NCBI RefSeq assembly: GCF_000739375.1
Contig: NZ_CP006704.1
Location: forward strand, 992,001-1,056,000
Length of the DNA stretch: 64,000 nucleotides
Direction of reading: 5' to 3'
Origin: Comamonas testosteroni TK102
GTDB lineage: Bacteria; Pseudomonadota; Gammaproteobacteria; Burkholderiales; Burkholderiaceae_C
Each line of letters begins with the position of its first letter. The first letter of the stretch is position 1. The position numbers and the translations under genes are program-made. This document shows positions 19,531 through 34,994 of this stretch, piece after piece. A model generated the notes under the pieces. It ran no database searches. It worked only from the letters and a program-made list of their open reading frames with translations, and had not been told where the DNA came from.

Positions 19531-20172
19531 TCATGGGAGAGCCAATCTATCAACCACCCGAACCAGCTCTGCCAGGGTCCTGACCTGTAGCTTGCGCATC
19601 GCCTGGGCGCGGCGCACTTTGATGGTGATCTCGCTCACGCCCAATTCGGCAGCGACTTGCTTGTTCAGCAGCCCGGCGGTTACTCTGCGCACGACATCCT
19701 GCTCACCGGCGGTAAGACTGTCCCATTGCGCCTGCAGCGATTGCCTGCTCAGGGTTTGGGCTTGGCGGCAGCGTCCCAGCGCAATTCCCTGATGTATCGC
19801 ATCCAGCAGCTCCTGCTCACGGAATGGCTTGGTCAGAAACTCGATGGCACCGCTCTTCATGGCTTGCACGCTCATGGGGATGTCGCCATGACCGGTGACA
19901 AAGATCACCGGCAGCCCTATGCCAAGGTCTTGCATCTGTCGCTGAAATTCCAAGCCGCTTTGGCCCGGCATGCGGATGTCCAGGACCAAGCATGCGGGGC
20001 GCTCCTGAGGGATGCGGTGCCAGTGTGCGATGAACTCGGCGGTAGAGCTAAAACCCAGGACGTCCAACCCGACGGAGGCGAGCAGATCTTCAATGGCGGT
20101 GCGTACCGAGCTGTCGTCGTCCACTACATAGACCATGGCGGTGGGTTTAGGGGTAGAGGGGATGCTGCTCAT
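19531..20172 (-). CDS. FixJ/NarL-type response regulator
   Basis: The receiver domain shows the acidic pair in VYVVDDDSS, the phospho-acceptor Asp in LVLDIRMPG, Thr in FVTGHGD and Lys in LTKPF. The C-terminal domain is a LuxR-type helix-turn-helix (LTAGEQDVVRRVTAG, NKQVAAELGVSEITIK). The family binds DNA as a phosphorylated dimer. Its start overlaps the kinase stop by 4 bp (ATGA), so it is the partner of that kinase. It closes the long minus-strand gene series that starts with the EPDP leader peptide, and its targets may include that series. The overall length of 213 aa is normal. Confidence 0.92.
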   Translation of the reverse strand: MSSIPSTPKPTAMVYVVDDDSSVRTAIEDLLASVGLDVLGFSSTAEFIAHWHRIPQERPACLVLDIRMPGQSGLEFQRQMQDLGIGLPVIFVTGHGDIPMSVQAMKSGAIEFLTKPFREQELLDAIHQGIALGRCRQAQTLSRQSLQAQWDSLTAGEQDVVRRVTAGLLNKQVAAELGVSEITIKVRRAQAMRKLQVRTLAELVRVVDRLALP

Positions 20173-21242
20173 GGTCGGGAGCCCGTTGTTGCGGGCAGGC
20201 TGATATGAAACTGCGTGCCAGGCAGACCATCGTCTCGAGGTTCTGCCCAGATGCGGCCCCCATGGGCCTCGATCATATTGCGGCTGATGGTAAGCCCCAG
20301 TCCCATGCCATCTGATTTGGTGGTCCAGAAGGCATCGAATAAATGAGCCTGGACGGCGGGCGACAGACCGCTGCCACAGTCGGTGACCGTCAACTGCAGC
20401 TGTTGCTCGTCCAGGCGGCGTGCAGTGATGGTGATTTCAGCTTGCCGGTGTTCGGCCGTTATGGCCTCGATGGCGTTGAGCAGCAGATTGCCCACCACCT
20501 GCTGAATCTGTATGCGGTCGGCCCATGCCTCGGGCAGGTTGGGGGCAAATTCCCAGCGCAATCCAATGCCGCGTTTTTCCAGCACGCCCTGCGACAGCTG
20601 CGCCATTTCGCATACCGCATCTTCCAGCACAAAGCGCTGTCGCTGTGGGGCTTCGCCACCCGCCAAGCCGCGGATACGGGTGATGACATTGCTGGCGCGC
20701 TCGGCGTCGGCCTGAATTCGCAGCAGTGCTTGGTTGGCCTTCTCCAGCTGGGGAGGCTGTTGGCCCAGCCAGCGTTGGCCGGCCTGGCTGCTCGTGACAA
20801 TGGCCGCCAGCGGCTGGTTGACTTCATGCGCAATGGAGGCCGTCAGTTCCCCCAGGCTGGTGGTCCGCGCAATGTGCAGCAACCGGGTCTGGGCCGCATG
20901 GGCTGCGGCCTGGGCTGCCACCATCTTCAGTCCCAGGTAGGCGGTGATGGCAATGGCGAGAACGCTGATCCCGGAGTTGACCAGTCCCACCCGGTACATC
21001 CCCGTGGGTGTGAGAACAAAGCTGACTACGGTCAGCACAATGCACAGCACTGTCAGCACCACCACGGTACGTGGAGTGAACCAGCGCACGGCCATCAGGA
21101 TGACGGCGGTGTAGAAAACGGCTGCGGCTACCGCATATTCCGTCATGGTGTCGGCCACAAAAATGGCTGTCATGACCATTCCCAGCACCAAGGCGATCAG
21201 GCTGCGACGCAGCGACAGGGATTGGGGCAGTTGCGACATCAT
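20169..21242 (-). CDS. FixL-like membrane sensor histidine kinase
   Basis: Five to six hydrophobic segments fill the first 120 residues (LIALVLGMVMTAIFVADT, AAAVFYTAVILMAV, VVVLTVLCIVLTVVSF, ISVLAIAITAYLGL). The HisKA domain has the phospho-acceptor in SIAHEVNQPLAAI, and the ATPase domain has NLLLNAIEA (N box), DCGSGLS (G1) and GMGLGLTISR (G2). HEVNQPLA is typical of FixL/TtrS-type kinases with FixJ-type partners. There is no PAS domain; the membrane part itself may be the sensor. The reading frame extends to 21329, but the hydrophobic core starts just after ATG 21242/21239, so I chose that start. The stimulus is unknown; the neighbours suggest Mg2+ or metal stress. Confidence 0.88.
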   Translation of the reverse strand: MMSQLPQSLSLRRSLIALVLGMVMTAIFVADTMTEYAVAAAVFYTAVILMAVRWFTPRTVVVLTVLCIVLTVVSFVLTPTGMYRVGLVNSGISVLAIAITAYLGLKMVAAQAAAHAAQTRLLHIARTTSLGELTASIAHEVNQPLAAIVTSSQAGQRWLGQQPPQLEKANQALLRIQADAERASNVITRIRGLAGGEAPQRQRFVLEDAVCEMAQLSQGVLEKRGIGLRWEFAPNLPEAWADRIQIQQVVGNLLLNAIEAITAEHRQAEITITARRLDEQQLQLTVTDCGSGLSPAVQAHLFDAFWTTKSDGMGLGLTISRNMIEAHGGRIWAEPRDDGLPGTQFHISLPATTGSRP

Positions 21243-21386
21243 CAAGACAGTCAATGTGACAAGGCAAAAATGGCCGGGATACCTATATGGTAGATGAGTG
21301 GTCGGCAGCGCTTGTTTGCGCCATCGCATCGGTTAAGGGGGGAGCGTAAAAATGCAGCCAGCTCAGCCAGTGAGTAGGGCTGAAGG

Positions 21387-22115
21387 TCAATCCTCCGCCC
21401 TGGCATTCCAGAAGGCTTGCAGCACCCCATCCTCGGCTTCCAGCCGGGCCATGATCTTGTCGAGCTCGTCGCCTTCGACTGCTGTGGCATAGAGCGTGGC
21501 CTCGATTTCGGTATCGCCTTGGCCAAAGGCATGCTGCTCTATGTCTCGTACCGGGTAGCTGGCCTGGTCCAGCCACTGCAGCAATTTCTCGCGGATCTCG
21601 GGCTGCTGGGTGTGGCGGCATATCACATAGACCGCGTAGGTGGCTTCGCTCAATTCCTCCTGTATGGGTTGGCGGTTGATGCGATTGACCACGGGACGCA
21701 GCAAGGTGTTGGCTGCCAGGACGAACAACGCGGCCAAAATGGCTTCAGGCAGCAACTTGGCTCCCGCGCAGCAGCCCACGGCGGCCGAGCCCCACAGCGT
21801 GGCTGCCGTGTTCAGACCTGAGACATTGGCACCTTCTTTCATGATGGCGCCTGCGCCCAGAAAGCCAATGCCGGAGACCACATAGGCAATGACCTGCATG
21901 GGGCTGGGGGAGCCTCCATACAGGTCGTGGAAACGCACTGCCAGATCGACAAACACCGCCGCACCCACAGCCACCAGCGTGTTGGTGCGCAGACCGGCCG
22001 TGCGCTGGCGGATCTGGCGCTCAAAGCCAATCAGTGCGCCCAGGCTGAAGGCGATGACCAGGCTAGCAAGTGTGCCGAGCGTGGCGGAAATATCGAAGGC
22101 GGGCCAGTGGTTCAT
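21387..22115 (-). CDS. mgtC: MgtC/SapB family protein
   Basis: The N-terminal 140 residues form the conserved MgtC membrane domain: SLGALIGFERQIRQRTAGLRT, NTLVAVGAAVFV, VVSGIGFLGAGAIMKEG, SGLNTAATLWGSAAVGCCAG. The C-terminal 90 residues form an ACT-like soluble domain. MgtC is made under Mg2+ starvation in enterobacteria and damps ATP synthase activity. The ATG at 22115 has AGGA upstream and matches the usual start of the family; the longer frame to 22250 adds 45 unrelated residues. It lies about 200 bp downstream of mgtA on the same strand, the same association as in the Salmonella mgtCB operon. Confidence 0.92.
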   Translation of the reverse strand: MNHWPAFDISATLGTLASLVIAFSLGALIGFERQIRQRTAGLRTNTLVAVGAAVFVDLAVRFHDLYGGSPSPMQVIAYVVSGIGFLGAGAIMKEGANVSGLNTAATLWGSAAVGCCAGAKLLPEAILAALFVLAANTLLRPVVNRINRQPIQEELSEATYAVYVICRHTQQPEIREKLLQWLDQASYPVRDIEQHAFGQGDTEIEATLYATAVEGDELDKIMARLEAEDGVLQAFWNARAED

Positions 22116-22316
22116 GAAAATCCTGGAGGAGGTCGAGGCCAAGCGTGGTGCCAGTGTGTGGCAGACGATCACATCGATCACTACCCAACTATGGCACGTC
22201 AGCAGCAGAGAGTGCAGAAAGACCGTGGTGTGGCCATCGCGCTGCACCATCCATGAGTTCAGGGCCTGTGCATGCTCAGGTCCTGAGCTCTCGCCGTCAG
22301 CGCTCCGGGACCTGGC

Positions 22317-25103
22317 TTACTGCCAGCCAAATCTGTGGATGTAGTGGCGTTTGACCACGGTGGTCAGCGCAGCGTAACCCAGCAAGATGGCCACCAGAAA
22401 AGGCCAGTACAGCGGTGGCAGTGCCTCCATCTTGAAGTAGCCGGCCACAGGCCCCATGGGAATGAACACTCCGATGGCCATGATGGCGGCAGTGGTCAGC
22501 AGCAGCGGCCAGGCGGCACGGCTTTCGACAAAGGGAATGCGGGGAGTGCGGATCATGTGCACGATCAGAGTCTGGGTCAGCAAGCCGACCACGAACCACC
22601 CAGACTGGAACAGTGTTTGGTGCTCAGGCGTGTTGGCCTGGAAGATCCACCACATCGTGCCAAAACACAGAATGTCGAACAGCGAGCTCAGCGGTCCAAA
22701 GCACAGCATGAAGCGCCCTATGTCCTGAGGATTCCAGCGCAGAGGCTGGTGCACCAGCTCGGGGTCCACCTTGTCAAAAGGAATGGCGATCTGCGAGATG
22801 TCGTACAGCAGGTTTTGCAGCAAAAGCTGCAGCGGCAGCATGGGCAAGAATGGCAGGAACACCGAGGCCACCAACACCGAGAACACGTTGCCGAAATTGG
22901 AGCTGGCCGTCATGCGGATGTACTTCAGCATATTGCAGAAGGTACGGCGACCTTCGATCACACCTTGCTCCAGTACCATCAGGCTTTTTTCCAGCAGGAT
23001 GATGTCGGCAGCTTCCTTGGCGATGTCCACAGCGCTGTCCACGCTGATGCCTATGTCCGCAGCGCGCAGCGCAGGAGCATCGTTGATGCCGTCGCCCATG
23101 AAGCCCACTACCCGGCCCTGGGCGCGTAGCGCAAGGACAATGCGCTCCTTGTGCAACGGGGTGAGACGAGCGAACAGGTGATGCTTTTGGAGGGTGGCAG
23201 CTAGCGCAGAGTCGCTCATGCGCTCCAGCTGTGGCCCAGTGACGGGCTGCCCCACATGCAGACCTACCTGTTCGCAGACCCGCGCGGCGACCAGCTCGTT
23301 GTCACCGGTGAGCACCTTGACTTCGACGCCATGTTCGGCCAGGGCCTTCAAGGCTGGTGCGGTGGACTCCTTGGGGGGATCGAGAAAGGCGATATAGCCC
23401 ACCAGGGTGAGCCCGGCTTCGTCAGCCACGCCGTAGTTGCGGCTGGACAGCGGGCTGACGGGCAGATGGCGGCTGGCTACTGCCACCGCGCGCAAGCCCT
23501 GTTTGTTCAGCCCTTCGGTCACTGCGCGCACGCGCGCCAGCATGGCGCTGTCCAGCGGCACCGTGGCATCGCCGTTGCGCACCCCGGTACAAACGGCCAG
23601 CATTTCCTCTATAGCGCCTTTGCACACCAGCAGCGTACTGCTGAGGTCGTTGTCGGGATGCAGCAGCACCGACATGCGCCGGCGGTCGAAATCGAAGGGT
23701 ATTTCATCGATCTTCTGCCAGTTTTTTGCAGGTCTGGAGGCAGGGTTCTGGTCCATGTGTTCGACGACGGCGCGGTCCAGCAGGTTCTTCAGCCCGGTCT
23801 GGTGGTAGCTGTTGAGCCAGGCCAGCTGCAGCGTCTCGCGTGACTCGTTGCCGAACACGTCGGTGTGGCGTTCCAGTGCGATGCGGTCCTGCGTCAGCGT
23901 GCCCGTCTTGTCGGTACACAGAACATCCATGGCACCGAAATTCTGGATGGCATCGAGTTGCTTGACGATGACTTTTTGCCGTGACAGCACAACCGCTCCC
24001 TTGGCCAGGGTGGAGGTGACGATCATGGGCAGCATCTCCGGTGTCAGGCCCACGGCTACTGACAGTGCAAACAGAAATGCCTCCATCCAGTCGCCCTTGG
24101 TGAAGCCGTTGAGCAGCAGTACCAGCGGAGCCATGACCAGGGCAAAGCGGATCAGCAGCCAAGAGACGCTGTTGACCCCGGCCTGGAAGGCGGTGGGGGC
24201 GCGGCCGGCGGCAACGGCACGGTGGGCCACCTGTCCGAAATAGGTCTGGTTGCCGGTGGCCACTACCACGGCCGTGGCCACGCCAGAGACCACGTTGGTG
24301 CCCATGAACAGCAGATTGGATTGCTCCAGAATGCCGTTGGAGAGGTGCTTGCGACCGGTGAACTTCTCCACCGGCAGGGATTCACCCGTCATTGCCGCCT
24401 GGGCCACAAACAGGTCCTTGGCCGTCAGCACGCGGCAGTCGGCGGGCACCATGTCGCCGGCGGACAGCCAGATATGGTCGCCGGGTACCAGCTCGCGCAT
24501 GGGGACTTCGCGTCGGACAGGGCGGCAGCAGGCATTGATGGGGTCATCAGTGCTGCGCCGGAGCGCTTCGCTGCCCTGAGGTCTCAGGTCACGGCGAATC
24601 ACCGTGGCGGTGCTGCTCACCATGGCCTTGAGCTGCTCGGCGCTGCGCTGGGAGCGGCCTTCTTGCACAAAACGGATGATGGTGGACAGCAGCACCATGG
24701 CAGCAATGATGACGGTGGCCTGGATGTCTTCGGTGGCCCAGGACACGATGGCCAGCAAGGTCAGCAACACATTGAAGGGGTTGCGGTAGCACTGCCACAG
24801 GTGCTGCCACCAGGGCAGTGGTTTTTCGTGATCGACCTCGTTGGGTCCGATGCGTTGCAGGCGCTCTGCCGCTTGGCCGTCGCTGAGCCCGGCTTCGCTG
24901 GACTGCAAGCGCACCAAGGCGCCTGGAATGTCATCGCAGGCCGCACGCCACAGGGCTCGGGTCAGTTGCTCAGGCACGGGGCTCCGGGCGACGGGCTTGC
25001 CGCCAGGTCCGCGCTCGAGGCCCGGCAGCGCGCTGCGGCGGAACAGTCTCAGGTTGTGGCGCCGGCGCAGGAAATGACCGAACCAGAATGTGAAGAAATT
25101 CAA
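22317..25103 (-). CDS. mgtA: Mg2+-importing P-type ATPase (MgtA/MgtB-like)
   Basis: This is a P3B-type ATPase of about 928 residues. It shows the membrane motif VGLTPEMLPMIVTSTLAKGA, the phosphorylated Asp in DKTGTLTQD, the hinge GDGINDAPAL followed by ADIGISVDSAVDIAKEAAD, and the phosphatase loop TGES. The N-terminus is extended, basic and partly acidic. These transporters bring Mg2+ in, with the gradient, under low Mg2+. No ATG is available near the start. The TTG at 25127 is only 2 bp from a ribosome-binding site, whereas the TTG at 25103 has AAGGA eight bases upstream, so I chose the latter. It follows the RND outer-membrane gene by under 30 bp. Confidence 0.93.
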   Translation of the reverse strand: MNFFTFWFGHFLRRRHNLRLFRRSALPGLERGPGGKPVARSPVPEQLTRALWRAACDDIPGALVRLQSSEAGLSDGQAAERLQRIGPNEVDHEKPLPWWQHLWQCYRNPFNVLLTLLAIVSWATEDIQATVIIAAMVLLSTIIRFVQEGRSQRSAEQLKAMVSSTATVIRRDLRPQGSEALRRSTDDPINACCRPVRREVPMRELVPGDHIWLSAGDMVPADCRVLTAKDLFVAQAAMTGESLPVEKFTGRKHLSNGILEQSNLLFMGTNVVSGVATAVVVATGNQTYFGQVAHRAVAAGRAPTAFQAGVNSVSWLLIRFALVMAPLVLLLNGFTKGDWMEAFLFALSVAVGLTPEMLPMIVTSTLAKGAVVLSRQKVIVKQLDAIQNFGAMDVLCTDKTGTLTQDRIALERHTDVFGNESRETLQLAWLNSYHQTGLKNLLDRAVVEHMDQNPASRPAKNWQKIDEIPFDFDRRRMSVLLHPDNDLSSTLLVCKGAIEEMLAVCTGVRNGDATVPLDSAMLARVRAVTEGLNKQGLRAVAVASRHLPVSPLSSRNYGVADEAGLTLVGYIAFLDPPKESTAPALKALAEHGVEVKVLTGDNELVAARVCEQVGLHVGQPVTGPQLERMSDSALAATLQKHHLFARLTPLHKERIVLALRAQGRVVGFMGDGINDAPALRAADIGISVDSAVDIAKEAADIILLEKSLMVLEQGVIEGRRTFCNMLKYIRMTASSNFGNVFSVLVASVFLPFLPMLPLQLLLQNLLYDISQIAIPFDKVDPELVHQPLRWNPQDIGRFMLCFGPLSSLFDILCFGTMWWIFQANTPEHQTLFQSGWFVVGLLTQTLIVHMIRTPRIPFVESRAAWPLLLTTAAIMAIGVFIPMGPVAGYFKMEALPPLYWPFLVAILLGYAALTTVVKRHYIHRFGWQ

Positions 25104-25131
25104 AATTCGTTCCTTGGCTGGTTTCAATACC

Positions 25132-26526
25132 TCACAGAGCGGGCTTTTGTCCCACGCTCAGCTGCAACTCGACCGTGGCGGTCGCCAGGTCCGCTTGGGC
25201 CTGCAGATAGTTTTGATAGGCTTCATCGGCCGAGTACTGCGCCGATAACAGCTCCAGCAGCGAGGCCGCGCCCTGGCGATAGGAGAGGCGCATGCCCTCC
25301 AGCACTTTCTGTGCATCGGCCAGCACGCCGTTGCGGTAGCGCTGCACGTTCTCGCGGGCAGACATGAAGCGCAGCTGTGCGGCGCGTACCTCGGCCTCGG
25401 TCTTGTAGCGGGCATGGTCCAGCTCCAGCATGGCCTGGGTCACCTCGGCTTCGGCCTGGATCAAGGCCCCCTTGTTCAGTCGCGAGAGCGGCAGCGGCAC
25501 GCTGATCCCAACCTTGAACATGCGCGAGCGCACGGCTGCGTCATAAGGATCTCCATCGCTGCCTAGCCCGGCCGGATGACCGGGCGTGCGCGCTACGCCC
25601 ACCGACACCGTGGGATTGACCCAGCGCTCTGCCTGGGCCAGATCGACCTTGTCACGGGCGTTGGCCAGCGTGGCTTCGGCGATGCGTATGGCATCGCGGG
25701 CGCGCAAGGCCTTTGGCAGCAGGCTTTGCAGGTCATCGCCCTGTGAGAAAGGTGTGAAATCGCAAAACAGGCGTACTTCTTCCTGAGCAGCTCCCAACGC
25801 CTCGGCCAGACGGCCACCCAGCGGGACTGACAGCGCCAGCATGGCCGCCTCGACATCGGCGCGGGCCGAGGTCACGTCGGCCGCGAACTGGTTGCGTTCA
25901 ACACGAGATTGCAGCAACTCCACGCCACCCACATCACCCGCCTTGCGGCGCACTTCGTTGGCTTGCACCACATCGCTGAGAGCCTTCAGTGTCTGCTCCT
26001 TGCGCTTGAGCACCTCGCGGCTGCGACAGGCCTCAGCGAAGGCGGTGGCAGCATTGCTGAACAGCGTGTTGCGAAATCCTTCAAGCTCGGCCTGTGTCAG
26101 TTGAGCCTGGCTTTTGGCCGCGCGAATGCGGGCATTGCGCTTGCCACCAGTCTCCATTTCCCAGCTCAGGGTGGGCGTAAAGGTTGTGGGGCGGGGCTCA
26201 CCGGTGTGTATGCGCTCGCGTTCCCATTCAAGGGACAACTCGGGATCGGGACGCAAGCCGGCTATGCCAATCTGGGCCTCGGCGGCAGTGATGGTGGTTT
26301 TCTGGGCTTTGAGTTCCAGGCTGTGGGATTCCACGGCCTGCAGGTAGTCGGCAAAGTGCACGGACTGTGGAGGCTGGGCACTGACCGGTGCTGGGGGCGT
26401 TGCCGGTTCGCTCGCGGCGAGCGTCGATGGCCCGGCCAGTGTGGCCATGGTGCAGGCCAGGCCAAGGCTGCCCAGGGACAGTCGGAGCGCCTGGGTCAGT
26501 GGGGCGTGGATGTAGACAAAACGCAT
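25132..26526 (-). CDS. czcC: CzcC-like outer-membrane efflux factor
   Basis: The 464-aa product has a signal peptide (LGLACTMATLAGPSTLAAS) and two TolC-type outer-membrane efflux repeats. They are rich in long amphipathic helices such as RNTLFSNAATAFAEACRSREVLKRKEQTL and AEATLANARDKVDLAQAERWVNPT. The family forms the trimeric outer-membrane duct of RND pumps. The start ATG 26526 has GAGG upstream. A longer open frame to 27186 runs antiparallel to nothing but lies within czcA in another frame and is rejected. It is 17 bp downstream of the pump gene, in the order czcB-czcA-czcC rather than the CBA order of the classic czc locus. Confidence 0.9.
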   Translation of the reverse strand: MRFVYIHAPLTQALRLSLGSLGLACTMATLAGPSTLAASEPATPPAPVSAQPPQSVHFADYLQAVESHSLELKAQKTTITAAEAQIGIAGLRPDPELSLEWERERIHTGEPRPTTFTPTLSWEMETGGKRNARIRAAKSQAQLTQAELEGFRNTLFSNAATAFAEACRSREVLKRKEQTLKALSDVVQANEVRRKAGDVGGVELLQSRVERNQFAADVTSARADVEAAMLALSVPLGGRLAEALGAAQEEVRLFCDFTPFSQGDDLQSLLPKALRARDAIRIAEATLANARDKVDLAQAERWVNPTVSVGVARTPGHPAGLGSDGDPYDAAVRSRMFKVGISVPLPLSRLNKGALIQAEAEVTQAMLELDHARYKTEAEVRAAQLRFMSARENVQRYRNGVLADAQKVLEGMRLSYRQGAASLLELLSAQYSADEAYQNYLQAQADLATATVELQLSVGQKPAL

Positions 26527-26543
26527 GGGAGACCTCGCTGGCT

Positions 26544-29500
26544 TCAATGTCCGGTGTGGGGTTGCTCGGGGTGGTCTGCAGAGGCTTGTGTGTCCAGCAG
26601 GTCCCAGTCGATGTCGCCTTGGTTCGCAGCGCCGGCAGCGCGGCGCTGTGCCCGGCGCTCCGTCCACGCTTCGACCGCGTAGTAGATCGAGGGCAGCAGT
26701 AGCAGGGTCAGCGCGGTGGCACTGGTCAGGCCGTAGACCACCACCGTGGCCAGCGGGCGCTGCACATCGCTGCCCAGATCGGTCGCGAGCATGGCCGGCA
26801 TCAGGCCAAAGGCGGCCACGGCTGCCGTCATCAGCACCGGACGCATGCGGTTGACTGCGCCCTCGATCACGGCCTCGCGCAGCGCCAGGCCTGCTTCCCG
26901 GCGCAATCGGTTGATCTGCGACACCAGCAGCACACCCGAGAGCACGGCCACACCGAACAGGGCGATGAAGCCCACGGCACTGGAGACATTCAGCGTCATG
27001 CCGCGCAGGTGCAGACCGGCCAGACCGCCAATCATGGCCAGAGGCACTGTGGCAAGCACCATCAGCGGCTGGCGCAGATTGCCGAAAGCACCAAACAGCA
27101 GCACCAGCATCAGGCTCAGCGTCAAAGGCAGGATCAGCGCCATTCGAGCCTCGGCGCGCTGCAGGTTTTCGAACTGGCCACCCCATTCCAGGCGGATGTG
27201 TTGCGGGTCTAACTGGATTTCTCGGTCGATGGTGGCATGTGCCTCGTCCAGAAAGCTGGCCAGGTCGCGGCCGCGGACGTTGAGCTTGACCAGAATGTGG
27301 CGTTCACCGCCTTCGCGCACGATCACGCTCTGGCCCTGGGTGGTGGAGATGCGTGCCACATCGGCCAGTGGCACCCGGGCACCGTTGGAGGAGCTCAGGC
27401 GAAGCTGGGAGATGGCGTCAACGCTGCCCCTGGCCGCCGGTGTGAAGCGCACGGCGATGTCGTAGCTTTTCTCGCCCACGTACAGATCGCCAATGCTGGC
27501 GCCGCCGATGCCGGTGGAGATCAGCTGGGCGACGTCGGCGGCGTTGACGCCCAGGCGGGCGGCAGCAGCACGGTCCAGCTCTATGCGCAGATTGGGCAGC
27601 GGCGGCTCGATGTCCACGGCCACATCGGCGGCACCTGGCACGGTCTTGAGCAGCGCTACCAGTTGATCGGCCACGCGGCGGTCATGGTCCAGGTCGTCGC
27701 CGAAGACCTTGAGTGTCAAGTCGCTATGGGCGCCTGAGAGCTTGTCCTGCACGCCGTCGATCATGGGCTGCATAAAGCCTACGCTGTAGCCCGGCATGCG
27801 GGCAAAGCGTGCTTCCATATGGCTGATCAGCTCCTGCTTGGTCCAGCCGGATTTCCAGCTCTTGTAGGGGTGCAGGCCTACGCTGGCCTCGATGTGAGAA
27901 GGAGTCCAGTAGTCGGTGCCGTCGTCATTGCGCCCGGTCTGGGTGACCACATAGGACACCTCGGGGAACTCGCGTGCTGCGCTGCGCAGCTCGTCCGCCA
28001 TATGCTGGGCCTTGCTCAGTGTGATGCCGGGGGGCAATTGCACCTGCAGCCAGATGGAGCCTTCGTCCAGATAGGGCAGAAAGTCACGGCCGATGGTTGC
28101 TCCGAGGCCCAGCAGCGTCAACAGGGCCACGCTCAAGGTGACCGCCCACCAGCGACCCTGACCTACGGCGCGTTGCAGAAACCGTCCGTAACGTGTTTCC
28201 ATTCTGTGCAGCACCGGGTTGTGGAAGATCTTGCGCGGATGGCGGAAAGCCAGCCAGGCCAGTGCCGGTGTCAGCAACAGGGCCACGGCCAGCGCACCGG
28301 CCAGCGCTGCAGACACGGCACTGGCCATCGGTGCGAACAGCTTGTATTCGATGCGCTCAAAAGCGAACAGTGGCAGATAGGCTGTGGCGATTACGCACAT
28401 GCCGAAGAAAATGGGGCGGGCTACTTGCAAGGTGGCCGTGATCGCATCGCGTGGTGACAGTGGCCGACCGGCGCGCTGCTCACGCAGGCGCAGCATCCCT
28501 TCGACGACCACGACGGCCCCGTCCACCAAAATGCCGAAGTCGATGGCACCCAGCGACAGCAGATTGGCGGGGATGCGGGCGTGGTGCATGAAGACAAAGG
28601 CCAGCAGCAGCGACATGGGAATGGTCAGTGCCACGATCATTGCGGCGCGTGGGCTGCCCAGGAATAGCAGCAGCACCAAGGTGACGACCACCAGGCCTTC
28701 TATCAGCGTGTGGCCGACGGTGTCTATGGTGCGATCGATCAGTGTGGAACGGTCCAGATAGGGAACAACCTTGACATCGGCAGGCAGCAGACGGCCATTG
28801 AGTTCATCGACGGCGGCATGGATGCCTTGTAGTGCCTGAGAAGGGTTGGTGTCCTTGAGCAGCAGCACAATGCCGCTGACGGCATCGCTGTCATCGTCCT
28901 TGCCCAGCACGCCGCGGCGCTCCACTTCCCCATAGATCAAACGGCCCAGGTCCTTGACCAGCACCGGCACGCCGTCCTTGCTGGCCTTGACCACCACCTG
29001 GCCCATGTCCTCCAGCGAACGCAGCAGACCGACACCGCGAATCACATAGGAAACTTCACCGCGGTCCAGCACGCTGCCGCCACCGCTGGCATTGTTGGCA
29101 TTGATGGCCTCCACCACCTCGGCAAGCGTCACGCCGTATTGCAGCAGGCGCTGAGGGGCCAGCTCCAGCATGTACTGCGTGGTCAGGCCGCCGAAATTGG
29201 TCACATCCGCTACGCCTGCCGCTTTTTTGAGCCGGGGAATCACGGTCCAGCTCTGCAGCTCGGACAGCTCGCGAAGACTGCGGACAGGGCTTTCCAGTGT
29301 GTAGCGGTAGACCTCGCCGGTCGGCGAGCTGTAAGGGTCCAGCTCAGCCTTGGCCTCATAGGGCAGGTTGACCTCGTTGATGCGTTCCTGCAGGCGTTGG
29401 CGCGCCCAGTAGCCGTCCACGCCGTCCTCAAACACCACGGTGATCAGCGACAGCGCAAACAGGCTGCGCGAGCGCAGCACATGCATGCCCGGCGTGGCCA

Positions 29501-29720
29501 GCAAGGCGCGCTCCAGTGGCACGGTGATCTGTTGTTCGATTTCCTCGGCCGCCAGCCCTGGCACCTGGACCACGATCTGGGAAGTGGTATCGGCGATGTC
29601 GGGATAGGCCTCGATGGGCAGTTGCTTCCAGCTGAATGCACCATACAGTGCGGCGAAGGCGAATACCAGCCAGACCAGGTTGCGCCGCTGAAAGCACAGG
29701 GAGACAAAACGCTCAATCAT
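26544..29720 (-). CDS. czcA: CzcA-type heavy-metal RND efflux pump
   Basis: The 1058-aa protein is a full-length HME-RND pump. It shows the 12-TM plan with two large periplasmic loops, an N-terminal VWLVFAFAALYGAFSWKQLPIEAYPDI, and the proton-relay motif in TM4, DFGILVDGAVVVVEG, close to the DFG-x3-DGA-x4-EN of Co/Zn/Cd exporters. It works with CzcB and CzcC, using proton influx to move divalent cations from the periplasm or cytosol to the outside. The exact metal cannot be set from sequence alone. The C-terminus is hydrophilic and slightly His-poor. Its start overlaps the end of czcB by 8 bp. Confidence 0.93.
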   Translation of the reverse strand: MIERFVSLCFQRRNLVWLVFAFAALYGAFSWKQLPIEAYPDIADTTSQIVVQVPGLAAEEIEQQITVPLERALLATPGMHVLRSRSLFALSLITVVFEDGVDGYWARQRLQERINEVNLPYEAKAELDPYSSPTGEVYRYTLESPVRSLRELSELQSWTVIPRLKKAAGVADVTNFGGLTTQYMLELAPQRLLQYGVTLAEVVEAINANNASGGGSVLDRGEVSYVIRGVGLLRSLEDMGQVVVKASKDGVPVLVKDLGRLIYGEVERRGVLGKDDDSDAVSGIVLLLKDTNPSQALQGIHAAVDELNGRLLPADVKVVPYLDRSTLIDRTIDTVGHTLIEGLVVVTLVLLLFLGSPRAAMIVALTIPMSLLLAFVFMHHARIPANLLSLGAIDFGILVDGAVVVVEGMLRLREQRAGRPLSPRDAITATLQVARPIFFGMCVIATAYLPLFAFERIEYKLFAPMASAVSAALAGALAVALLLTPALAWLAFRHPRKIFHNPVLHRMETRYGRFLQRAVGQGRWWAVTLSVALLTLLGLGATIGRDFLPYLDEGSIWLQVQLPPGITLSKAQHMADELRSAAREFPEVSYVVTQTGRNDDGTDYWTPSHIEASVGLHPYKSWKSGWTKQELISHMEARFARMPGYSVGFMQPMIDGVQDKLSGAHSDLTLKVFGDDLDHDRRVADQLVALLKTVPGAADVAVDIEPPLPNLRIELDRAAAARLGVNAADVAQLISTGIGGASIGDLYVGEKSYDIAVRFTPAARGSVDAISQLRLSSSNGARVPLADVARISTTQGQSVIVREGGERHILVKLNVRGRDLASFLDEAHATIDREIQLDPQHIRLEWGGQFENLQRAEARMALILPLTLSLMLVLLFGAFGNLRQPLMVLATVPLAMIGGLAGLHLRGMTLNVSSAVGFIALFGVAVLSGVLLVSQINRLRREAGLALREAVIEGAVNRMRPVLMTAAVAAFGLMPAMLATDLGSDVQRPLATVVVYGLTSATALTLLLLPSIYYAVEAWTERRAQRRAAGAANQGDIDWDLLDTQASADHPEQPHTGH

Positions 29721-30846
29721 GGAAGAGCACTCCTCCGTTGACGACCACGCGCTCGCCCGGCTTCAGACCTGCGCTGATTTCTACCTGCTGGTCCTGCTGG
29801 GAGCCCACTTGCACATCACGCTGCACGAAGTGGCCGGCAGACTGCTCGACAAATACCCGGGTGCCCACGCTGCTTTGCAGCAGGGCCGAGACGGGCACCA
29901 CAGTTGCCTGGCGAGCCGGACCGTCAAAACGCACCTGGGCAAACATGCCGGGGAGCAGGCGCCCATCCTGGTTGTCGACGGCCACGCGCACTTTCACAGT
30001 GCGGGTTTCGAGATCCAGCAGCTCGCCCACATAGCGCACCTTGCCCTGCAGGGGCTGGTTCGGGTAGGCATTGAGAATGATGTGCGCGTTCTGTCCCACG
30101 CTGATGCTGGCCAGGTCACGCTCGGCCACGCTGGCGCTGAGCCAGACGGTGGACAGATCCGCCACGGTCATCACGGATTCGTTGATGTCGTTCCAGTAGC
30201 CGCCTTGTGCTCCGTTCATTTCTACGACGCGACCATTGATCGGTGAGCGCAGCACATAGTTGCCACGGCCACTGCCCTTGGCGGGAGCGCCCATCTGTGC
30301 CAGATGGGCCGTGACGGCTGCCATATCAGCTCGCGCTCTGGCCAGTTCTAGCTCGGCGGCTTCGTAGTCCTTGCGTGGAGCAATATCGGCTTCCAGCAGC
30401 AGCTTTTGACGATCGGCTTCGCGCTGGGCATGAATCATTGCGGCCTGGGCCTTTGCTTGGTCGGCGCGTACATTGGCCATATCGGCCGAGTCCATGGCGA
30501 ACAGCGGATCGCCCAGGTGCACGGTATCGCCAAGTACGCGGTGGATCTGCACCAGACGTCCGGGCAACGGAGGTGCCAGCTTCACCAGTTTCTCCGGCGC
30601 GGCTTCGATACTGGCTGGGGCAGTCACCGGTGTGGATAGATCGGCCAAGCCCACGACCTCCACCTGCAGCTTGCTCAGCAGAGGAGAGTTCGGGGGAACT
30701 TCGAGGATATTTCCCTGGCGGCGCAGTGCGGGCACTTCTGCAGGCCGGGAGTCGGTAGAGGCTGTATTGAGATCGCAGGCGCTGAGCAAGCTGCACAGGA
30801 GCAGGGCGGTGCCAGGTCGCGGCATGGCGGCCATACGGAAAGTCAT
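29713..30846 (-). CDS. czcB: CzcB-like membrane-fusion lipoprotein
   Basis: The 377-aa protein is a periplasmic adaptor of an RND pump. Its N-terminus is a lipoprotein signal with lipobox LLSAC. Next come a barrel-sandwich part (LVKLAPPLPGRLVQIHRVLGDTV), a helical hairpin (about 120-190), and the beta-barrel domain (VWLSASVAERDLASISVGQ, VRVAVDNQDG). The ATG at 30846 has AAGGAG seven bases upstream; the longer frame to 31059 has no such support. I see no His-rich metal-chelating N-terminal domain as in some CzcB proteins. It lies 70 bp downstream of the MgtE_N-like gene and overlaps czcA by 8 bp. Confidence 0.92.
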   Translation of the reverse strand: MTFRMAAMPRPGTALLLCSLLSACDLNTASTDSRPAEVPALRRQGNILEVPPNSPLLSKLQVEVVGLADLSTPVTAPASIEAAPEKLVKLAPPLPGRLVQIHRVLGDTVHLGDPLFAMDSADMANVRADQAKAQAAMIHAQREADRQKLLLEADIAPRKDYEAAELELARARADMAAVTAHLAQMGAPAKGSGRGNYVLRSPINGRVVEMNGAQGGYWNDINESVMTVADLSTVWLSASVAERDLASISVGQNAHIILNAYPNQPLQGKVRYVGELLDLETRTVKVRVAVDNQDGRLLPGMFAQVRFDGPARQATVVPVSALLQSSVGTRVFVEQSAGHFVQRDVQVGSQQDQQVEISAGLKPGERVVVNGGVLFHD

Positions 30847-30916
30847 GGGAGCTCCTTGCGGGAGAAGAAGGCGGCAAGAGCCGGCTTCACGTCGAGGGGG
30901 AATCGGCCCTGCAGAG

Positions 30917-31234
30917 TCAGGCTTGGATGTGCGCTGCGGTATCACCCCAGGCCAGCAGGTCCCAGCGTATGCGGCGGGGCGGATAGGGCGTGGCAACAGC
31001 GATTCCCAGCGGCAACAAGCTGTCGCACAGGTGGCGCGGCAGATGGCGCAGCACGGCATTGCGCTTGTCTTGAGGCAGCAGGCTCAGGGCATCGGCGGCA
31101 ACGCGAGGAGAGCAAAGTGCCAAGGCCTTGGCGAAAGAAGGCAGACCATGGGTTGCCAGTAGGTCGCGGACTTGGTGCACATTGCGCGACATCAGGGCGG
31201 CGCGCAGTGCGATGTTGAGTGGTTGACGGGTCAT
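30917..31234 (-). CDS. Small MgtE_N-like protein, 105 aa
   Basis: The protein has the repeating helical pattern of the MgtE N-terminal (MgtE_N) domain: IALRAALMSRNVHQVRDLLA, LPSFAKALALCSPRVAADAL, SLLPQDKRNAVLRHLPRHL. In MgtE this superhelix senses cytosolic Mg2+ and gates the channel. Here no CBS domains or membrane part follow, so the domain stands alone. It is the first full gene after the leader peptide and its ATG is hidden at the base of a 7-bp hairpin. A role as Mg2+ sensor or adaptor for a pump or MgtA is plausible but inferred. Confidence 0.7.
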   Translation of the reverse strand: MTRQPLNIALRAALMSRNVHQVRDLLATHGLPSFAKALALCSPRVAADALSLLPQDKRNAVLRHLPRHLCDSLLPLGIAVATPYPPRRIRWDLLAWGDTAAHIQA

Positions 31235-31236
31235 GG

Positions 31237-31270
31237 GGGGCTCACTGTCAATGCGGCGAGCGAGAGCCCC
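31237..31270 (-). promoter_or_regulatory. Hairpin that abuts the start of the MgtE_N-like gene
   Basis: GGGGCTC (31237-31243) and GAGCCCC (31264-31270) are perfect complements around a 20-nt loop. In the minus-strand transcript the hairpin falls between the leader-peptide stop (31285) and the next ATG (31234), and covers the place where a ribosome-binding site should be. It is a candidate translational switch. Confidence 0.5.
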
Positions 31271-31284
31271 TAGTCACAAAGGAA

Positions 31285-31392
31285 TCAGAGGTTCTCGAGC
31301 GGCAGCCGAACGGGTGGGACATGGCAGTGCTTTTGCCATGCGTGGGTCGGGAAAAGGGCGGTGCACAAGCACCTATGAGGGTCGGGTTCCAT
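31285..31392 (-). CDS. MgtL-like leader peptide (MEPDP...), 35 aa
   Basis: A 35-codon frame begins MEPDPHRC and ends PLENL-stop. Its ATG has a GGAG ribosome-binding site eight bases upstream. Enterobacterial MgtL, the leader peptide of mgtA, starts with the same five residues MEPDP; in MgtL the EPDP stretch destabilises the ribosome when Mg2+ is low, which changes the RNA structure so that mgtA is transcribed. The rest of this peptide is different from MgtL, longer, and has three Cys and several Pro. It lies 50 bp before the first gene of a series that contains mgtA and mgtC, which makes chance unlikely. The mechanism here is inferred. Confidence 0.65.
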   Translation of the reverse strand: MEPDPHRCLCTALFPTHAWQKHCHVPPVRLPLENL

Positions 31393-31511
31393 AGACGTTT
31401 CTCCGTGGGATGGATAGACGTCAAGCAGTGCTGAGAAGCGATTGCTTGAGCGATGGGGGTGATTCTCTGGATTCCCCGTAGCAGCGTCTAGCCGCTTTTG
31501 GGAAGGAGCGG

Positions 31512-31527
31512 CTATACCTTGGTATAG
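31512..31527. promoter_or_regulatory. Palindrome CTATACC-TT-GGTATAG
   Basis: Two perfect 7-bp arms are separated by 2 bp, some 120 bp upstream of the leader peptide. The position suits an operator for the operon. No regulator can be named; MerR-type and PadR-type operators have comparable layout. Confidence 0.4.
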
Positions 31528-32323
31528 ATGCGGCTGCGACAGACGGCTTGCCAAGGCAACGGCGCTGAATGGCGACAACTTTGCCGGTGAGTTCCAGGGC
31601 AGCGCCAAGGGGCTGACTGGCGCGCGGCCTTGATTTGCATCGGGCCGGGCTCCCCCAAAAGCCGCAGCAGCACGGCACCAGCCTGCGACGGCGCATATGG
31701 CGCCACTGTCCATCCACCGCAAATACCGAAGCCGGTGCGCCGCAGGCGCATGAGCCGCTCAACCAAGCCGACGGTTCACGTCAGCAAGGATGCGCGCAAG
31801 TGCACGAGGGTGATGTCGTGCCGAGTGTTTACGCCTGTGAGGCTTCCATAGGTTGTGCCGGTTGTTCATCCGGATGGTCTTGAGCGACTGGCAGTCGCCA
31901 CACACTCCGTGCGCGCATTGCCCTTCGCGCCATGCATTGCAGCGGGAAGATGCACGAAGCCGTCGCATTCCTGCACAACCGGGCGGCGCACAACGCAAGG
32001 CTGGGCAGGCGCATTGATAACCGGCAGCACCACTGCCACTGGCACAGAACGCACAGCAGCAGCGGCCATATCGATCCATGTCCAGACGCAAATCTGCAAA
32101 TAGGCACTTGAAGCTACTCACCGACTCATCCAGGCAAGGGCTCCTGCCCATGACGGGAGGAGCGTGGCTTGCCTACACGGCCGGCTGTCGGAGAGCGAGA
32201 GATGGTGCCAACTGGTCGTCAACAGCATTGCAGACTGCTGCGGACGCAGAGCAGGCCTGTGGTTGCCAAGTGGTCGACTTGCATTCCGCTGCCGGGACGG
32301 CGCTGCCCTGTCCGTATAGTTGA
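31528..32323. other. Gene-poor edge of the 16-32 kb segment
   Basis: I see no complete gene in these 796 bases. On the minus strand a short reading ARHHPRALARILADVNRRLG near 31760-31820 looks protein-like and could be the remains of a transposase or other gene, without firm match. The stretch ends at the second tRNA-like attachment sequence. Confidence 0.5.
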
Positions 32324-32370
32324 GACTCATCGTCCCTTGATCGTCGTTTCAAGCCCGCCACACCCTGCCA
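32324..32370 (+). repeat. Second, degraded copy of the tRNA 3'-end attachment site
   Basis: These 47 bases align without gaps to 15989-16035, with 39 identical positions. Both begin GACTCAT and end in CCA. As with the first copy there is no 5' tRNA half. A hairpin terminator follows it. The mismatches disturb the T arm, so it is an old attachment relic and not a tRNA. It marks the probable right end of an older element that spans 16036-32370. Confidence 0.7.
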
Positions 32371-32379
32371 GACTGCATG

Positions 32380-32413
32380 AAAGCCTGCCGTCTTCATCAA
32401 TGACAGGCTTTTT
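32380..32413 (+). terminator. Terminator-like hairpin after attachment relic
   Basis: AAAGCCTG and CAGGCTTT pair over 8 bp with a 16-nt loop, followed by TTTTC. The position after the tRNA-like fragment repeats the arrangement at 16046-16075. Confidence 0.6.
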
Positions 32414-32486
32414 CTTTGCCGGGTGCGAAAAAGTTGCCAGATTTGCCCGGGCAGCGGTTTTTGCGCTGCTACAATACAACCCTGTT

Positions 32487-32563
32487 GCGGCTGTAGCTCA
32501 GCTGGATAGAGTACTTGGCTACGAACCAAGGGGTCGTGGGTTCGATTCCTGCCAGCCGCACCA
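32487..32563 (+). tRNA. tRNA-Arg (ACG)
   Basis: The 77-nt cloverleaf includes the CCA end. The acceptor arms are GCGGCTG and CAGCCGC. The anticodon stem is CTTGG/CCAAG around CTACGAA with anticodon ACG (read as ICG). The T arm is GTGGG-TTCGATT-CCTGC. A strong terminator follows 10 bp later. It is intact and outside the island repeats, so it marks the start of normal chromosome. Confidence 0.97.
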
Positions 32564-32572
32564 CAAAACGTC

Positions 32573-32606
32573 AAACCTCAGAACTGCAAAGTTCTGAGGT
32601 TTTTTC
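32573..32606 (+). terminator. Terminator of tRNA-Arg
   Basis: A perfect 13-bp stem, AAACCTCAGAACT paired with its complement around GCAA, is followed by TTTTTTCG. It also reads as a terminator in the opposite direction and could serve the converging kinase gene. Confidence 0.92.
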
Positions 32607-32645
32607 GTTTTTACCCTCAGGTTTCCTGCGCGGTGCTGGGGCGCT

Positions 32646-34994
32646 TCAGACTTTGGGGATCAGCAAGGTGAAGCAACTGCCCTGGCCCGGCTGGCTGCTG
32701 ATCTGCAGACGGCCGCCATGGCGCTGTGCCACGGTGCGCGTGAAGGCCAGTCCCAGGCCCACGCCATCCATGCGCTGGTGCTGCTGCAGACGCTCGAAGG
32801 GCTGGCTGAGTCTGGCCAGCGATTCCTCATCCATGCCGGGGCCGTGATCGCGCACGGCAATGCCCCAGTGGCCATCTTGCTCGACGATGCGGATGTCCAC
32901 CACCGCGCCGGCATCCGCATCCTGCGGCTTGCCGTACTTGATGGCATTGGTCAGCAGGTTGATCACGGCGCGGTGCAGCAGGCCGGGGTCGCCATGCACG
33001 CAGGCTTCGGCATCCGGCAGTTCGAACGCCAGCTGCATGTTCTGCTGCTGGGCCTGGGCCCAGCAATCCGAGACGGCCTGATCTGCCAGAAGGCCCAGGT
33101 CCAGGACCTCGCTGCGGTATTGCTGCCGCTGGGCTCTGGCCAGATGCACAAAATCGTCCGCCAGTTGCAGGGACGACTGGGCATAGCCCTCGATGCGGGC
33201 AAACAGCGCATCTTCCGATTCGATGCGCTTGCCAGTGCGCTGCATCTCCAGCAAGGTGATGATGGAGCCGATGGGCGCGCGGATATCGTGCGAGATGAAC
33301 TGCATGGCCTGGTCGCGCTGGGCCTGTGCACTGCGCAGGTCGCTGATATCGACCAGGGTGATGAGCCAGCCCGAGGTGGGCGGTGCCTCGAAGGTCTGGC
33401 TCAGCAGCATCAGATGGCGTCCCTGGGAGTCGCGTCCCTCGCTTTGGCGAGGCAGCGTTGCATTTTGCATGGCGCTGCGCGTCAGCAACGGGGTGTTGCC
33501 GTGTTCCTCGTCGCTGGCGGCATGGTGCAGTTCGGCCAGCAGGTTGACCAGGTCGTCGCCCTGCTGCAGGCTCAGGCCCAGGCTTTCGATATAGCGGTGG
33601 GCTGCGGTATTGGCCAGCAGTACCAGTCCGTTGCGGCCGCAGACAAAGGTGGCGGATGGCAGCTGGCGCAGGCTTTCGCTCACGAAGTGATGCAGGGAGC
33701 GCAGCTGGCGCGAGGCCTGCTCCACGGCCGAGATGCGCTGATCCAAGGCATCCCCCTTGAGAGCGCTGCGGCTGGCAGTCGGCAGCCCCTGGTCCTGCAG
33801 ATCGCGCAGCTCCAGCGCCAGAAAGCGTGTCGCTGCGCGCAGGCGCAGCCAGCTCCACAGCGGATAGGCCAGCGCCAGACTCAGCAGCGCTGCCGCAGGC
33901 TCGGTCTGGATATGGCCCCAACGCGGTGCCAGGCCGGCAATCAGCAGACTGAGCAAGGCCAGCAGGATGCTGGAAATCAGCCCGCCGGAGGGTCCGAACC
34001 AGGCCAGGGCCAGCAGGCCCAGCAGCACGGGCAGCAGATTGAGGCTGCGGTTGAGTGCGGAAGATGCGGGTTCCAGATGTGCGCCCTGCAGGATGCCGTT
34101 GAGCACATGGCCCAGCATTTCCACATTGGAGATCAGGCGTGCATCCAGGCCGATGGGGGCGGTGAATTTTTCGCCGAGACCGGCAGCGGTTGCCCCGATC
34201 AGCACATATTTGCCGCGAAAGGCGGCCGCCGGAATGTCGCCGCGCAGGACGTCGATATAGGAGTAGGTGGTGAACGGCGAACCCAGGCTTTTCTGGCGGT
34301 CCTGCGAGGCCCGGGCAAAGGCGATGAAGCGCGGCTGCAGCTTTTGCCAGGAGTCGGCGGGCGCCGGGCCGGCTGGCGACTGGGCTGGTGGCGGGCAGGG
34401 CCCGGCGTTCTGGCCCACGCAGTGCAGGCTCAGTGCCATATGCCACCAGGGCTGGGTGGGCGTGCCTTCCTGTGCGTAAAAGCGCCGAACAACCCCGTCG
34501 GCATCCATCGGCATCTGCGTGTGGCCCAGTGCGGCAGCTTCGCTGGCAAGACCCTTGAGCGGAGCGGTGGCGCCGTTCTGCGCGGCGCGTGTGACGGGCA
34601 GCACCACATTGCCGCTTTTTTTCAGTGCTTGCTGCAGCAGCAGATCGTCGCCGGGGTAGTCCAGGTCTTCCTCGCTGAAGACCACATCCATGCCGATGGC
34701 GCGAGGCTTGCCCTGCTCGATGCGATCCAGCAAGGCCGCATGCAGTGCGCGGCGCCAGGGCCAGCGGCCTATGCTGGCGATGCTGTCATCGTCGATGGCC
34801 ACAATGACGACCTCGGGCGAGGCCGGACGCTGGTGCAGCCAGACCGAGGTGTCCTGAAGAATGCCGTTGATGCGCGGTAGCTGGCCCGGGCCGCTGAGCC
34901 ACCAGGTCAGGCCGAGCAGGAAGGCGCTGAGCAGCAGCCAGCTCAGGCGCAGATTCTGCAAGCGGCTTTTGCGCGGGCTGGGAGCTTCAACCAT
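32646..34994 (-). CDS. CHASE2-domain sensor histidine kinase
   Basis: The 782-aa kinase has one N-terminal membrane anchor (LSWLLLSAFLLGLTWWLSG) and a periplasmic CHASE2 domain (about 45-300; EVVIVAIDDDSIASIGRWPW, GMDVVFSEEDLDYPGDD). Three further membrane helices follow (about 310-385), then a PAS-like region and HisKA with phospho-acceptor in FISHDIRAPIGS. The ATPase domain has NLLTNAIKYG, DHGPGMD and GVGLGLAFTR. CHASE2 kinases sense unknown external signals. It is the third gene after the OmpR regulator and the FecR/LysM protein on the same strand, so these likely form one signalling unit. Confidence 0.93.
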   Translation of the reverse strand: MVEAPSPRKSRLQNLRLSWLLLSAFLLGLTWWLSGPGQLPRINGILQDTSVWLHQRPASPEVVIVAIDDDSIASIGRWPWRRALHAALLDRIEQGKPRAIGMDVVFSEEDLDYPGDDLLLQQALKKSGNVVLPVTRAAQNGATAPLKGLASEAAALGHTQMPMDADGVVRRFYAQEGTPTQPWWHMALSLHCVGQNAGPCPPPAQSPAGPAPADSWQKLQPRFIAFARASQDRQKSLGSPFTTYSYIDVLRGDIPAAAFRGKYVLIGATAAGLGEKFTAPIGLDARLISNVEMLGHVLNGILQGAHLEPASSALNRSLNLLPVLLGLLALAWFGPSGGLISSILLALLSLLIAGLAPRWGHIQTEPAAALLSLALAYPLWSWLRLRAATRFLALELRDLQDQGLPTASRSALKGDALDQRISAVEQASRQLRSLHHFVSESLRQLPSATFVCGRNGLVLLANTAAHRYIESLGLSLQQGDDLVNLLAELHHAASDEEHGNTPLLTRSAMQNATLPRQSEGRDSQGRHLMLLSQTFEAPPTSGWLITLVDISDLRSAQAQRDQAMQFISHDIRAPIGSIITLLEMQRTGKRIESEDALFARIEGYAQSSLQLADDFVHLARAQRQQYRSEVLDLGLLADQAVSDCWAQAQQQNMQLAFELPDAEACVHGDPGLLHRAVINLLTNAIKYGKPQDADAGAVVDIRIVEQDGHWGIAVRDHGPGMDEESLARLSQPFERLQQHQRMDGVGLGLAFTRTVAQRHGGRLQISSQPGQGSCFTLLIPKV

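Follow-up and report, generated by a model that had tools for sequence, protein, structure and literature searches.

Does the short reading frame that opens with MEPDP, ahead of a metal-transport operon of Comamonas testosteroni TK102, act as a magnesium-responsive leader of the kind known from enterobacteria? In the enterobacterial leader MgtL, the EPDP residues cause ribosomes to drop off at low Mg2+, and exchange of Glu2/Asp4 for Gln/Asn leaves no detectable expression of an mgtA fusion (excerpts of PMC11282234). The first-pass annotation of this DNA proposed that an EPDP leader works similarly here, in a betaproteobacterium, with another tail and placed before RND efflux genes. As a case study we considered the window, i.e. 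the whole stretch of 64,000 nucleotides around this frame (bases 992001-1056000 of a 6.06-Mb genome in one contig), together with related loci and genomes (L and G numbers below).

The leader, its operon and its nearest relatives

The 35-codon minus-strand frame and its GGAG site are present as first described (Table 1). The genes downstream do include mgtA and mgtC, recognised by TIGR01524 and PF02308, and the MgtE_N-like gene announced with them could be confirmed as a weak resemblance only: the first gene product, sml105, matches MgtE_N (E 0.18) and FliG_M (E 0.01) below the Pfam cut-offs, and a profile comparison with one MgtE N domain gave E 2e-4 at a probability of 45%. The small first-gene proteins of related loci have about 100-130 aa and a core ADALSLLP..R..VLRHLP, and are likewise weakly similar to a stand-alone MgtE N domain. 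At L218, L123, L245 and L129, the first gene past the leader encodes a probable exported protein of unassigned family (GGHHSVDDAAIL.. / GRPFATDDAAIV..), and the L218 protein has no match in Pfam. The window operon terminates in genes for a histidine kinase and a LuxR-type regulator, as do all the operons (those of G009, G063 and L262-L265) that share its upstream palindrome.

Table 1. Features of the leader region and of the operon downstream, in the order of transcription (positions in the window)
Feature	Position	Strand	Remark
Perfect palindrome TATACCAAGGTATA, candidate operator	31513..31526	.	134 nt upstream of leader start
Leader ribosome-binding site GGAG	31401..31404	minus	8 nt ahead of ATG
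Leader ORF MEPDPHRCLCTALFPTHAWQKHCHVPPVRLPLENL	31285..31392	minus	35 codons; ATG 31392-31390, TGA 31287-31285
Predicted hairpin H1, GGTGC-TTGT-GCACC	31360..31373	minus	leader nt 20-33, directly past EPDP codons
Predicted mid-leader hairpin, CATGGCA...TGCCATG	31320..31340	minus	consensus fold of own, G009 and G063 leaders only
Putative H3 antisequestor strand in leader tail, CGAGAACCTCT	31287..31297	minus	predicted to pair with 31271-31261
Putative H3 partner strand, AGGGGCTCTCG	31261..31271	minus	overlaps H2 5' arm
Predicted hairpin H2, GGGGCTC (31270-31264) / GAGCCCC (31243-31237)	31237..31270	minus	7 bp; would bury first-gene ribosome-binding zone
First gene, sml105, 105 aa, MgtE_N-like small protein	30917..31234	minus	weak resemblance
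RND periplasmic adaptor	29713..30846	minus	HlyD_D23; TIGR01730 above cut-off
CusA/CzcA-type RND permease	26544..29720	minus	TIGR00914, 898 bits, cut-off 701
Outer-membrane efflux protein (OEP), start position not fixed	25132..26550	minus	PF02321
mgtA, Mg2+-translocating P-type ATPase	22317..25127	minus	TIGR01524, 1314 bits, cut-off 611
mgtC	21387..22250	minus	PF02308; NCBIfam MgtC model below own cut-off
Histidine kinase	20169..21329	minus	
LuxR/FixJ-like response regulator	19531..20172	minus	

A tRNA gene lies about 1.1 kb upstream of the leader, at 32487-32560 on the plus strand. The palindrome TATACCAAGGTATA is exact in seven of the 53 leaders collected in this study (the window's own, G009, G063 and L262-L265), at -119 to -143, and L047 and L208 have only its ACC(AA/TT)GGT core; it is a candidate operator, possibly for the LuxR-type regulator of the operon.

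Among the 52 other genomes of the genus, convincing matches to the leader stretch were found in G009 (E 3e-39) and G063 (E 7e-30) only, the next match having an E value of 0.012. Both genomes carry the entire operon with unchanged gene order, and both keep the leader start, the 35-codon frame, the stop and an identical nucleotide block from codon 5 (CCTCATAGGTGCTTGTGCACCGCC). Their leaders read MEPGP, with Gly as residue 4, so that Asp4, one of the two acids important in MgtL, is absent in two of the three. The annotation had regarded a MEPDP start that varies within conserved surroundings as evidence against its proposal, and this is in part what we find, operon and flanking DNA being kept in G009 and G063. 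The more distant G720 has the same operon behind the leader MDSDPDGRLCAAPRPSRSFHPAGSAWRASIA. In L047, from a Comamonas metagenome-assembled genome (MAG), the leader MDPAPSKRSCAVSRLPNPLFSYPTHPAAVWRLSIA stands ahead of the small gene, mgtA and mgtC, separate from the RND operon of that locus, and the genome of the window itself has a second leader, MDPDPSRSCSAPRAARCQAIGLRVTLRAARRNRNPDPGLDA, near 5.418 Mb, which heads a small gene-mgtA-mgtC series.

Distribution and composition of the leaders

Short ORFs that open with M[DE]P[DAGY]P, in most cases MDPDP, are found as leaders at the head of Mg2+ operons in Burkholderiales and Xanthomonadaceae. These operons contain, in various combinations, the MgtE_N-like small gene, mgtA, mgtC, mgtE and CzcA-type RND genes, and there are also mgtA/mgtC/mgtE operons without RND genes. 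Using the RND protein as query, we obtained 80 loci. The leader count refers to 25 of them, the closest among those from betaproteobacteria, Xanthomonas and Stenotrophomonas; the remaining 55, whose RND genes are distant or cut or come from other phyla, were scanned and stand outside it. An operon-head leader is present in 16 of these 25, from Delftia, Comamonas, Herminiimonas, an Acidovorax MAG, Cupriavidus basilensis, Stenotrophomonas, Variovorax, Xanthomonas, a Roseateles MAG and an Alcaligenaceae, and there is none in the other nine (L039, L044-L046, the RND operon of L047, L049-L051 and L092). The placement before RND genes that was first proposed thus holds for these 16 loci, but is too narrow for leaders that also head non-RND mgtA/mgtC/mgtE operons and that reach the Xanthomonadaceae.

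Searches with other genes of the operon gave comparable pictures. With the small first gene as query and the leader disregarded, 13 loci were recovered from 12 of the 399 genomes of the family (G720 included), and 10 of them have a leader. MgtC retrieved 74 regions, from 50 of the 399 genomes of the family, 15 of the 149 genomes of the family of G1105 (presumably Xanthomonadaceae, to judge from its operons) and 5 of the 321 genomes of the class, and 32 of the 74 have a leader at the operon. Such leaders accompany 17 of the 24 regions with mgtA beside mgtC, the other seven having none at the operon head, 18 of the 19 with the small gene, and none of the 19 loci whose MgtC has no more than 57% identity. 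Leaders are absent from the MgtC loci of Cupriavidus metallidurans (L287, L288) and C. campinensis (L289); the locus on a Variovorax plasmid (L286) has one, reading MDPAP. At L239 (DPDPEPEPEPEP) and L244, the leader stands directly ahead of an MgtE-type gene; three relatives of the leader-bearing MgtE were found in 150 genomes, all of them distant and none with such an ORF at its locus. L055 and L087 are weak members of the family (MDPAP; L087 lacks an SD). MDPVP reading frames upstream of mgtC in L226 and L229 were not counted as leaders.

The pattern MDPDP itself was also searched for. In the 53 genomes of the genus it gave 34 matches in 28 genomes, against 14 for the reversed pattern. Of 30 such loci read, 24 proved to be leaders (34-50 codons, with a purine-rich site upstream) and 6 something else; 23 of these leaders are followed, according to tblastn, by the small gene, mgtA, mgtC or HlyD, and the one at L296 is without a tblastn match. 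An order-wide pattern search in 399 genomes gave 27 matches against 18 for the reversed pattern. Only four of the 27 were recognised as leaders (L121, which is the window's own; L122; L123; L129), and this search taken alone proves little.

The 53 leaders comprise 40 with MDPDP, four with MDPAP, two each with MEPGP and MDPYP, and one each with MEPDP, MNPDP, MAPDP, MDPDS and MDSDP. Comparison across Comamonas, Delftia and their relatives bears out an acidic-proline leader on betaproteobacterial metal and Mg2+ operons, with a tail unlike that of MgtL, but not MEPDP as its rule, the exact start of the window being the exception (1/53). The motif is commoner at operon heads than chance would allow: when both strands of the 74 MgtC regions (1.05 Mb) were scanned for its strict form, [AG]TG-GAN-CCN-GAN-CC, 27 hits fell on leaders that head an operon and three elsewhere, and one of these three is itself the leader of L244, 44 nt ahead of mgtE. 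Since the search patterns themselves dictated most of positions 2, 3 and 5, conservation there is no independent result, and only codon 4 is largely free of ascertainment bias; it is acidic in 45 of the 53 leaders and non-acidic in eight. Codon variation in codons 2-5 is 0.029 at codon positions 1-2 and 0.235 at position 3, and there is no such difference between position classes in codons 6-15 (0.463 vs 0.442). Some leaders extend the motif: there are six DP in Delftia acidovorans (L035 8597), whereas D. tsuruhatensis has ten, together with one DS (L036 8585). These repeats, and that of L239, are evidence independent of the search-pattern bias.

Predicted structures between leader and first gene

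The hairpin first described as lying 15 bp past the leader stop and covering the next start codon does begin at the 15th nucleotide past the stop. Its other end lies 2 nt short of the ATG (31234), which it abuts and does not cover. For tests of this hairpin, H2, the first-gene start was assigned by hand in 43 of the 53 leaders, 37-70 nt past the leader stop; L041, L043, L052, L053, L055, L087, L215, L216, L223 and L242, in which this start is unassigned, were left out, and L211, which has no H2, is absent from the tests on 42 loci. Against dinucleotide shuffles, the spacer fold has a mean z of -2.37, with p<=0.05 in 27 of 43 loci, and the H2 of the window alone a z of -1.25 (p 0.11; swap rank 0.185). 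In the genus set, 23 of the 24 leaders have an ATG at 30-75 nt, and the mean z is -1.96, with p<=0.05 in 13 of 23, the start being taken mechanically as the first ATG with 60 open codons, which is clearly too early in L315 and L317. When arms were swapped among loci, own partners gave -23.9 kcal/mol and swapped ones -16.3, 23 of 42 loci were in the best 5% and none of 2000 permutations reached the observed sum, in a test that corrects only partly for relatedness. The arms differ among loci yet stay complementary, i.e. the partners covary. A column alignment of the spacers (RNAalifold) gave no consensus structure (0.0), which may perhaps reflect sliding arms. As a prediction, this covarying hairpin that would bury the ribosome-binding site (RBS) is the best-supported RNA feature of the family.

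The tail of the leader is predicted to pair with the 5' arm of H2 (H3), with compensatory changes between the window (CGAGA/TCTCG) and G063 (CGAAG/CTTCG). Against shuffled tails, the duplex of tail and 5' arm has a mean z of -1.34, with p<=0.05 in 15 of 43 loci, and in swaps, subject to the same partial correction for relatedness, 13 of 42 loci were in the best 5% and none of 2000 permutations matched the sum; taken by itself, the H3 of the window is weak (duplex p 0.22, swap rank 0.70, shuffled-leader percentile 0.17). Masking the whole leader raised the mean probability of H2 from 0.52 to 0.84 (up by more than 0.1 in 21 of 42 loci, down in one), and masking the tail raised it to 0.80. In the clade of the window, masking of the tail and of the whole leader had nearly the same effect: H2 rose from 0.27 to 0.72 and 0.71 respectively in the window, from 0.04 to 0.95 and 0.95 in G009, and from 0.01 to 0.88 and 0.84 in G063. 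Because taking away any competitor must favour H2, we compared the natural leaders with shuffled ones: free H2 is 0.52 as observed and 0.72 with shuffled leaders, the natural leader being in the lowest 5% in 13 of 42 loci and in the highest 10% in three (Wilcoxon p 0.007, on sequences that are not independent). By these predictions, some members of the family, the clade of the window among them, have a leader tail that can compete for the H2 5' arm.

Within the frame, the pairing of H1 is kept in G720 (GGCGC/GCGCC) and L047 (AGCGC/GCGCT), and a GGCGC/GCGCC-like motif occurs in 28 of the 53 leaders. The statistics for H1 are weak: the mean z against synonymous shuffles is -0.53, with p<=0.05 in 6 of 53, and swaps place one of 42 loci in the best 5%, though none of 2000 permutations matched the overall sum.

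A probable switch at low magnesium and its relation to known leaders

We think it probable that the reading frame is translated and belongs to a family of leader peptides that attenuate Mg2+ operons, ribosome drop-off at low Mg2+ turning the operon on. Ribosomes on M-[D/E]-P-[D]-P would be intrinsically unstable at low Mg2+. When Mg2+ is sufficient, the frame would be completed and the ribosome would cover the tail, H2 would form and bury the RBS, and the operon would be poorly translated; at low Mg2+, drop-off at the acidic-Pro codons would leave the tail free to pair with the 5' arm of H2, and the start of the first gene would be released. In the window, the output would be a composite operon encoding the MgtE_N-like protein, the RND metal pump, MgtA, MgtC and the two-component system. 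With Pro3 in the P site, the mRNA entrance would be occupied by H1, which begins 7 nt past codon 4 and may, on geometric grounds alone, hold the ribosome there. Drop-off as the ON state is the most likely sign of the switch because H3 and H2 correspond to stems 2:3 and 3:4 of Salmonella mgtQ, an ORF with early acids for which stem 2:3 frees and stem 3:4 buries the mgtB RBS (excerpts of PMC8092293).

The MgtL-like logic first proposed for this betaproteobacterium thus finds a switch that can be drawn consistently with MgtL and MgtQ, from H2 covariation and tail pairing, whereas the accessibility of the RBS is on average opposite to it. The unpaired probability of the RBS zone is, on average, lowered and not raised by a free leader (0.33 free, 0.38 with a ribosome at the stop, 0.43 with the leader removed); the zone is more open with the free leader in 9 of 43 loci and less open in 21, the clade of the window following the expected direction. 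Judged by RBS accessibility, an antisequestor model fails as a general rule, while the masking and shuffle tests specific to H2 are favourable. The wiring might be reversed, with completion of the leader opening H2 by translational coupling or re-initiation and drop-off turning the operon down. Over 43 loci, the median distance places the first base of the H2 5' arm at the 6th nucleotide past the leader stop, within the footprint expected of a terminating ribosome, and the slightly greater openness with a ribosome at the stop would agree with such coupling, but masking the tail gives more H2 and not less, shuffled tails pair with that arm less well than the natural ones, and Mg2+ importers would be shut off when they are needed; we consider this reversal rather unlikely.

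For the output, burial of the first-gene RBS could be replaced by Rho-dependent termination, as in Salmonella mgtL. Such termination is reported for MgtL in excerpts of PMC11282234 and PMC11552253, those of the latter adding that evidence for it is lacking in the case of E. coli mgtA; with the covarying RBS-burying hairpin as the best-supported RNA feature here, we hold it unlikely as the replacement, although both could act jointly. As to the signal, MgtP senses charged tRNA-Pro (excerpts of PMC8092293), and a leader that responds to proline supply, EF-P or slow Pro codons, and is linked to Mg2+ through its operon only, would suit the presence of Pro at positions 3 and 5 in 52 of 53 leaders each, above the 45 of 53 for an acidic residue 4. 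It would also suit codon choice, since codon 3 is CCC in 44 of 53 leaders, against a usage of 0.40 in six genes of the window, and codon 5 is CCT in 34 of 53, against 0.19. The two prolines were, however, partly demanded by the search patterns, they alternate with acids and do not stand in tandem, and the motif where expanded is DP or EP and not PP, which makes proline sensing distinctly improbable. That the ORF is a chance one, with only RNA structure conserved or nothing at all, is hardly credible in spite of H1 within it, H2 beside it and the strong synonymous bias of its Pro codons, given the excess of the strict motif at operon heads, the same peptide start behind a GTG in L238 and the D-to-E swap with codon change in L239 (acidic codons GAT, GAA and GAG).

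Returning to drop-off at low Mg2+, a wider hypothesis can be offered tentatively, as a possibility with the odds against it: acid-Pro leaders might form a separate, widespread class of Mg2+ sensors for mgtE, mgtA, mgtC and MgtE_N-like regulons, with a captured CzcA-type pump, in which the number of DP/EP (usually two, up to ten) and H1 would set the threshold of drop-off, and repeat expansion would tune the set point, as between the two Delftia. Drop-off sensing of Mg2+ is known from a few enterobacterial leaders, and a family in other orders would show its generality. The variants MDPDP, MEPDP, MEPGP, MDPAP and MDPYP and the long DP/EP repeats, beside a simple RBS switch, would provide a natural mutant series for the key residues, and control of a heavy-metal RND pump by such a Mg2+ leader would suggest a link between Mg2+ starvation and export of toxic metals.

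Rfam models gave no match to the leader in positions 29000-33000 of the window at E<=1 (only the tRNA and a sub-threshold match at that tRNA), nor to leaders at ten leader loci at the gathering score (three tRNAs only). A full-text literature search, with most subscription papers outside its reach, yielded no description of such leaders outside Enterobacterales, and none of the papers containing the string MDPDP concerns, by title and abstract, a bacterial leader. A copper-responsive upstream ORF is reportedly the subject of one paper (PMC9426467).

Among known systems, MgtL (the enterobacterial mgtA leader, b4702 in E. coli K-12) shares with the window the MEPDP start, which is MDPDP in most of the family, and the arrangement of a short ORF ahead of Mg2+ transport genes with alternative RNA structures. 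MgtL has 17 residues and the window leader 35, with an unrelated tail, HRCLCTALFPTHAWQKHCHVPPVRLPLENL; mgtA lies 140 nt past MgtL, whereas here a hairpin predicted to bury the RBS is followed by a first gene 37-70 nt past the stop, and mgtA is the fifth gene in the window and the second at the other locus of this genome. The present family also heads operons of the MgtE_N-like gene, RND genes, mgtA, mgtC or mgtE, in other bacterial orders. CorL, the leader of corA, is likewise a short ORF, the efficient translation of which lowers expression of a Mg2+ transporter gene; it differs by the single proline reported in its conserved start and by regulation through Rho (excerpts of PMC11552253). MgtQ, an 8-codon ORF in the gap between mgtC and mgtB of Salmonella, resembles the window leader in its early acids and, by prediction here, in RBS burial, and may resemble it in stem choice, for which the prediction is strong in part of the family and in the clade of the window but weak for the window alone; it acts by ribosome destabilisation with a translational output, as the window leader would; it differs in lying inside an operon between two genes and not at the head of one, and in having Asp2/Glu5 and one conserved Pro where the present leaders have acid-Pro-acid-Pro, sometimes repeated (excerpts of PMC8092293). 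In its proposed working, the window leader is thus like MgtQ and MgtL, but by peptide tail and place it is no member of the MgtL family.
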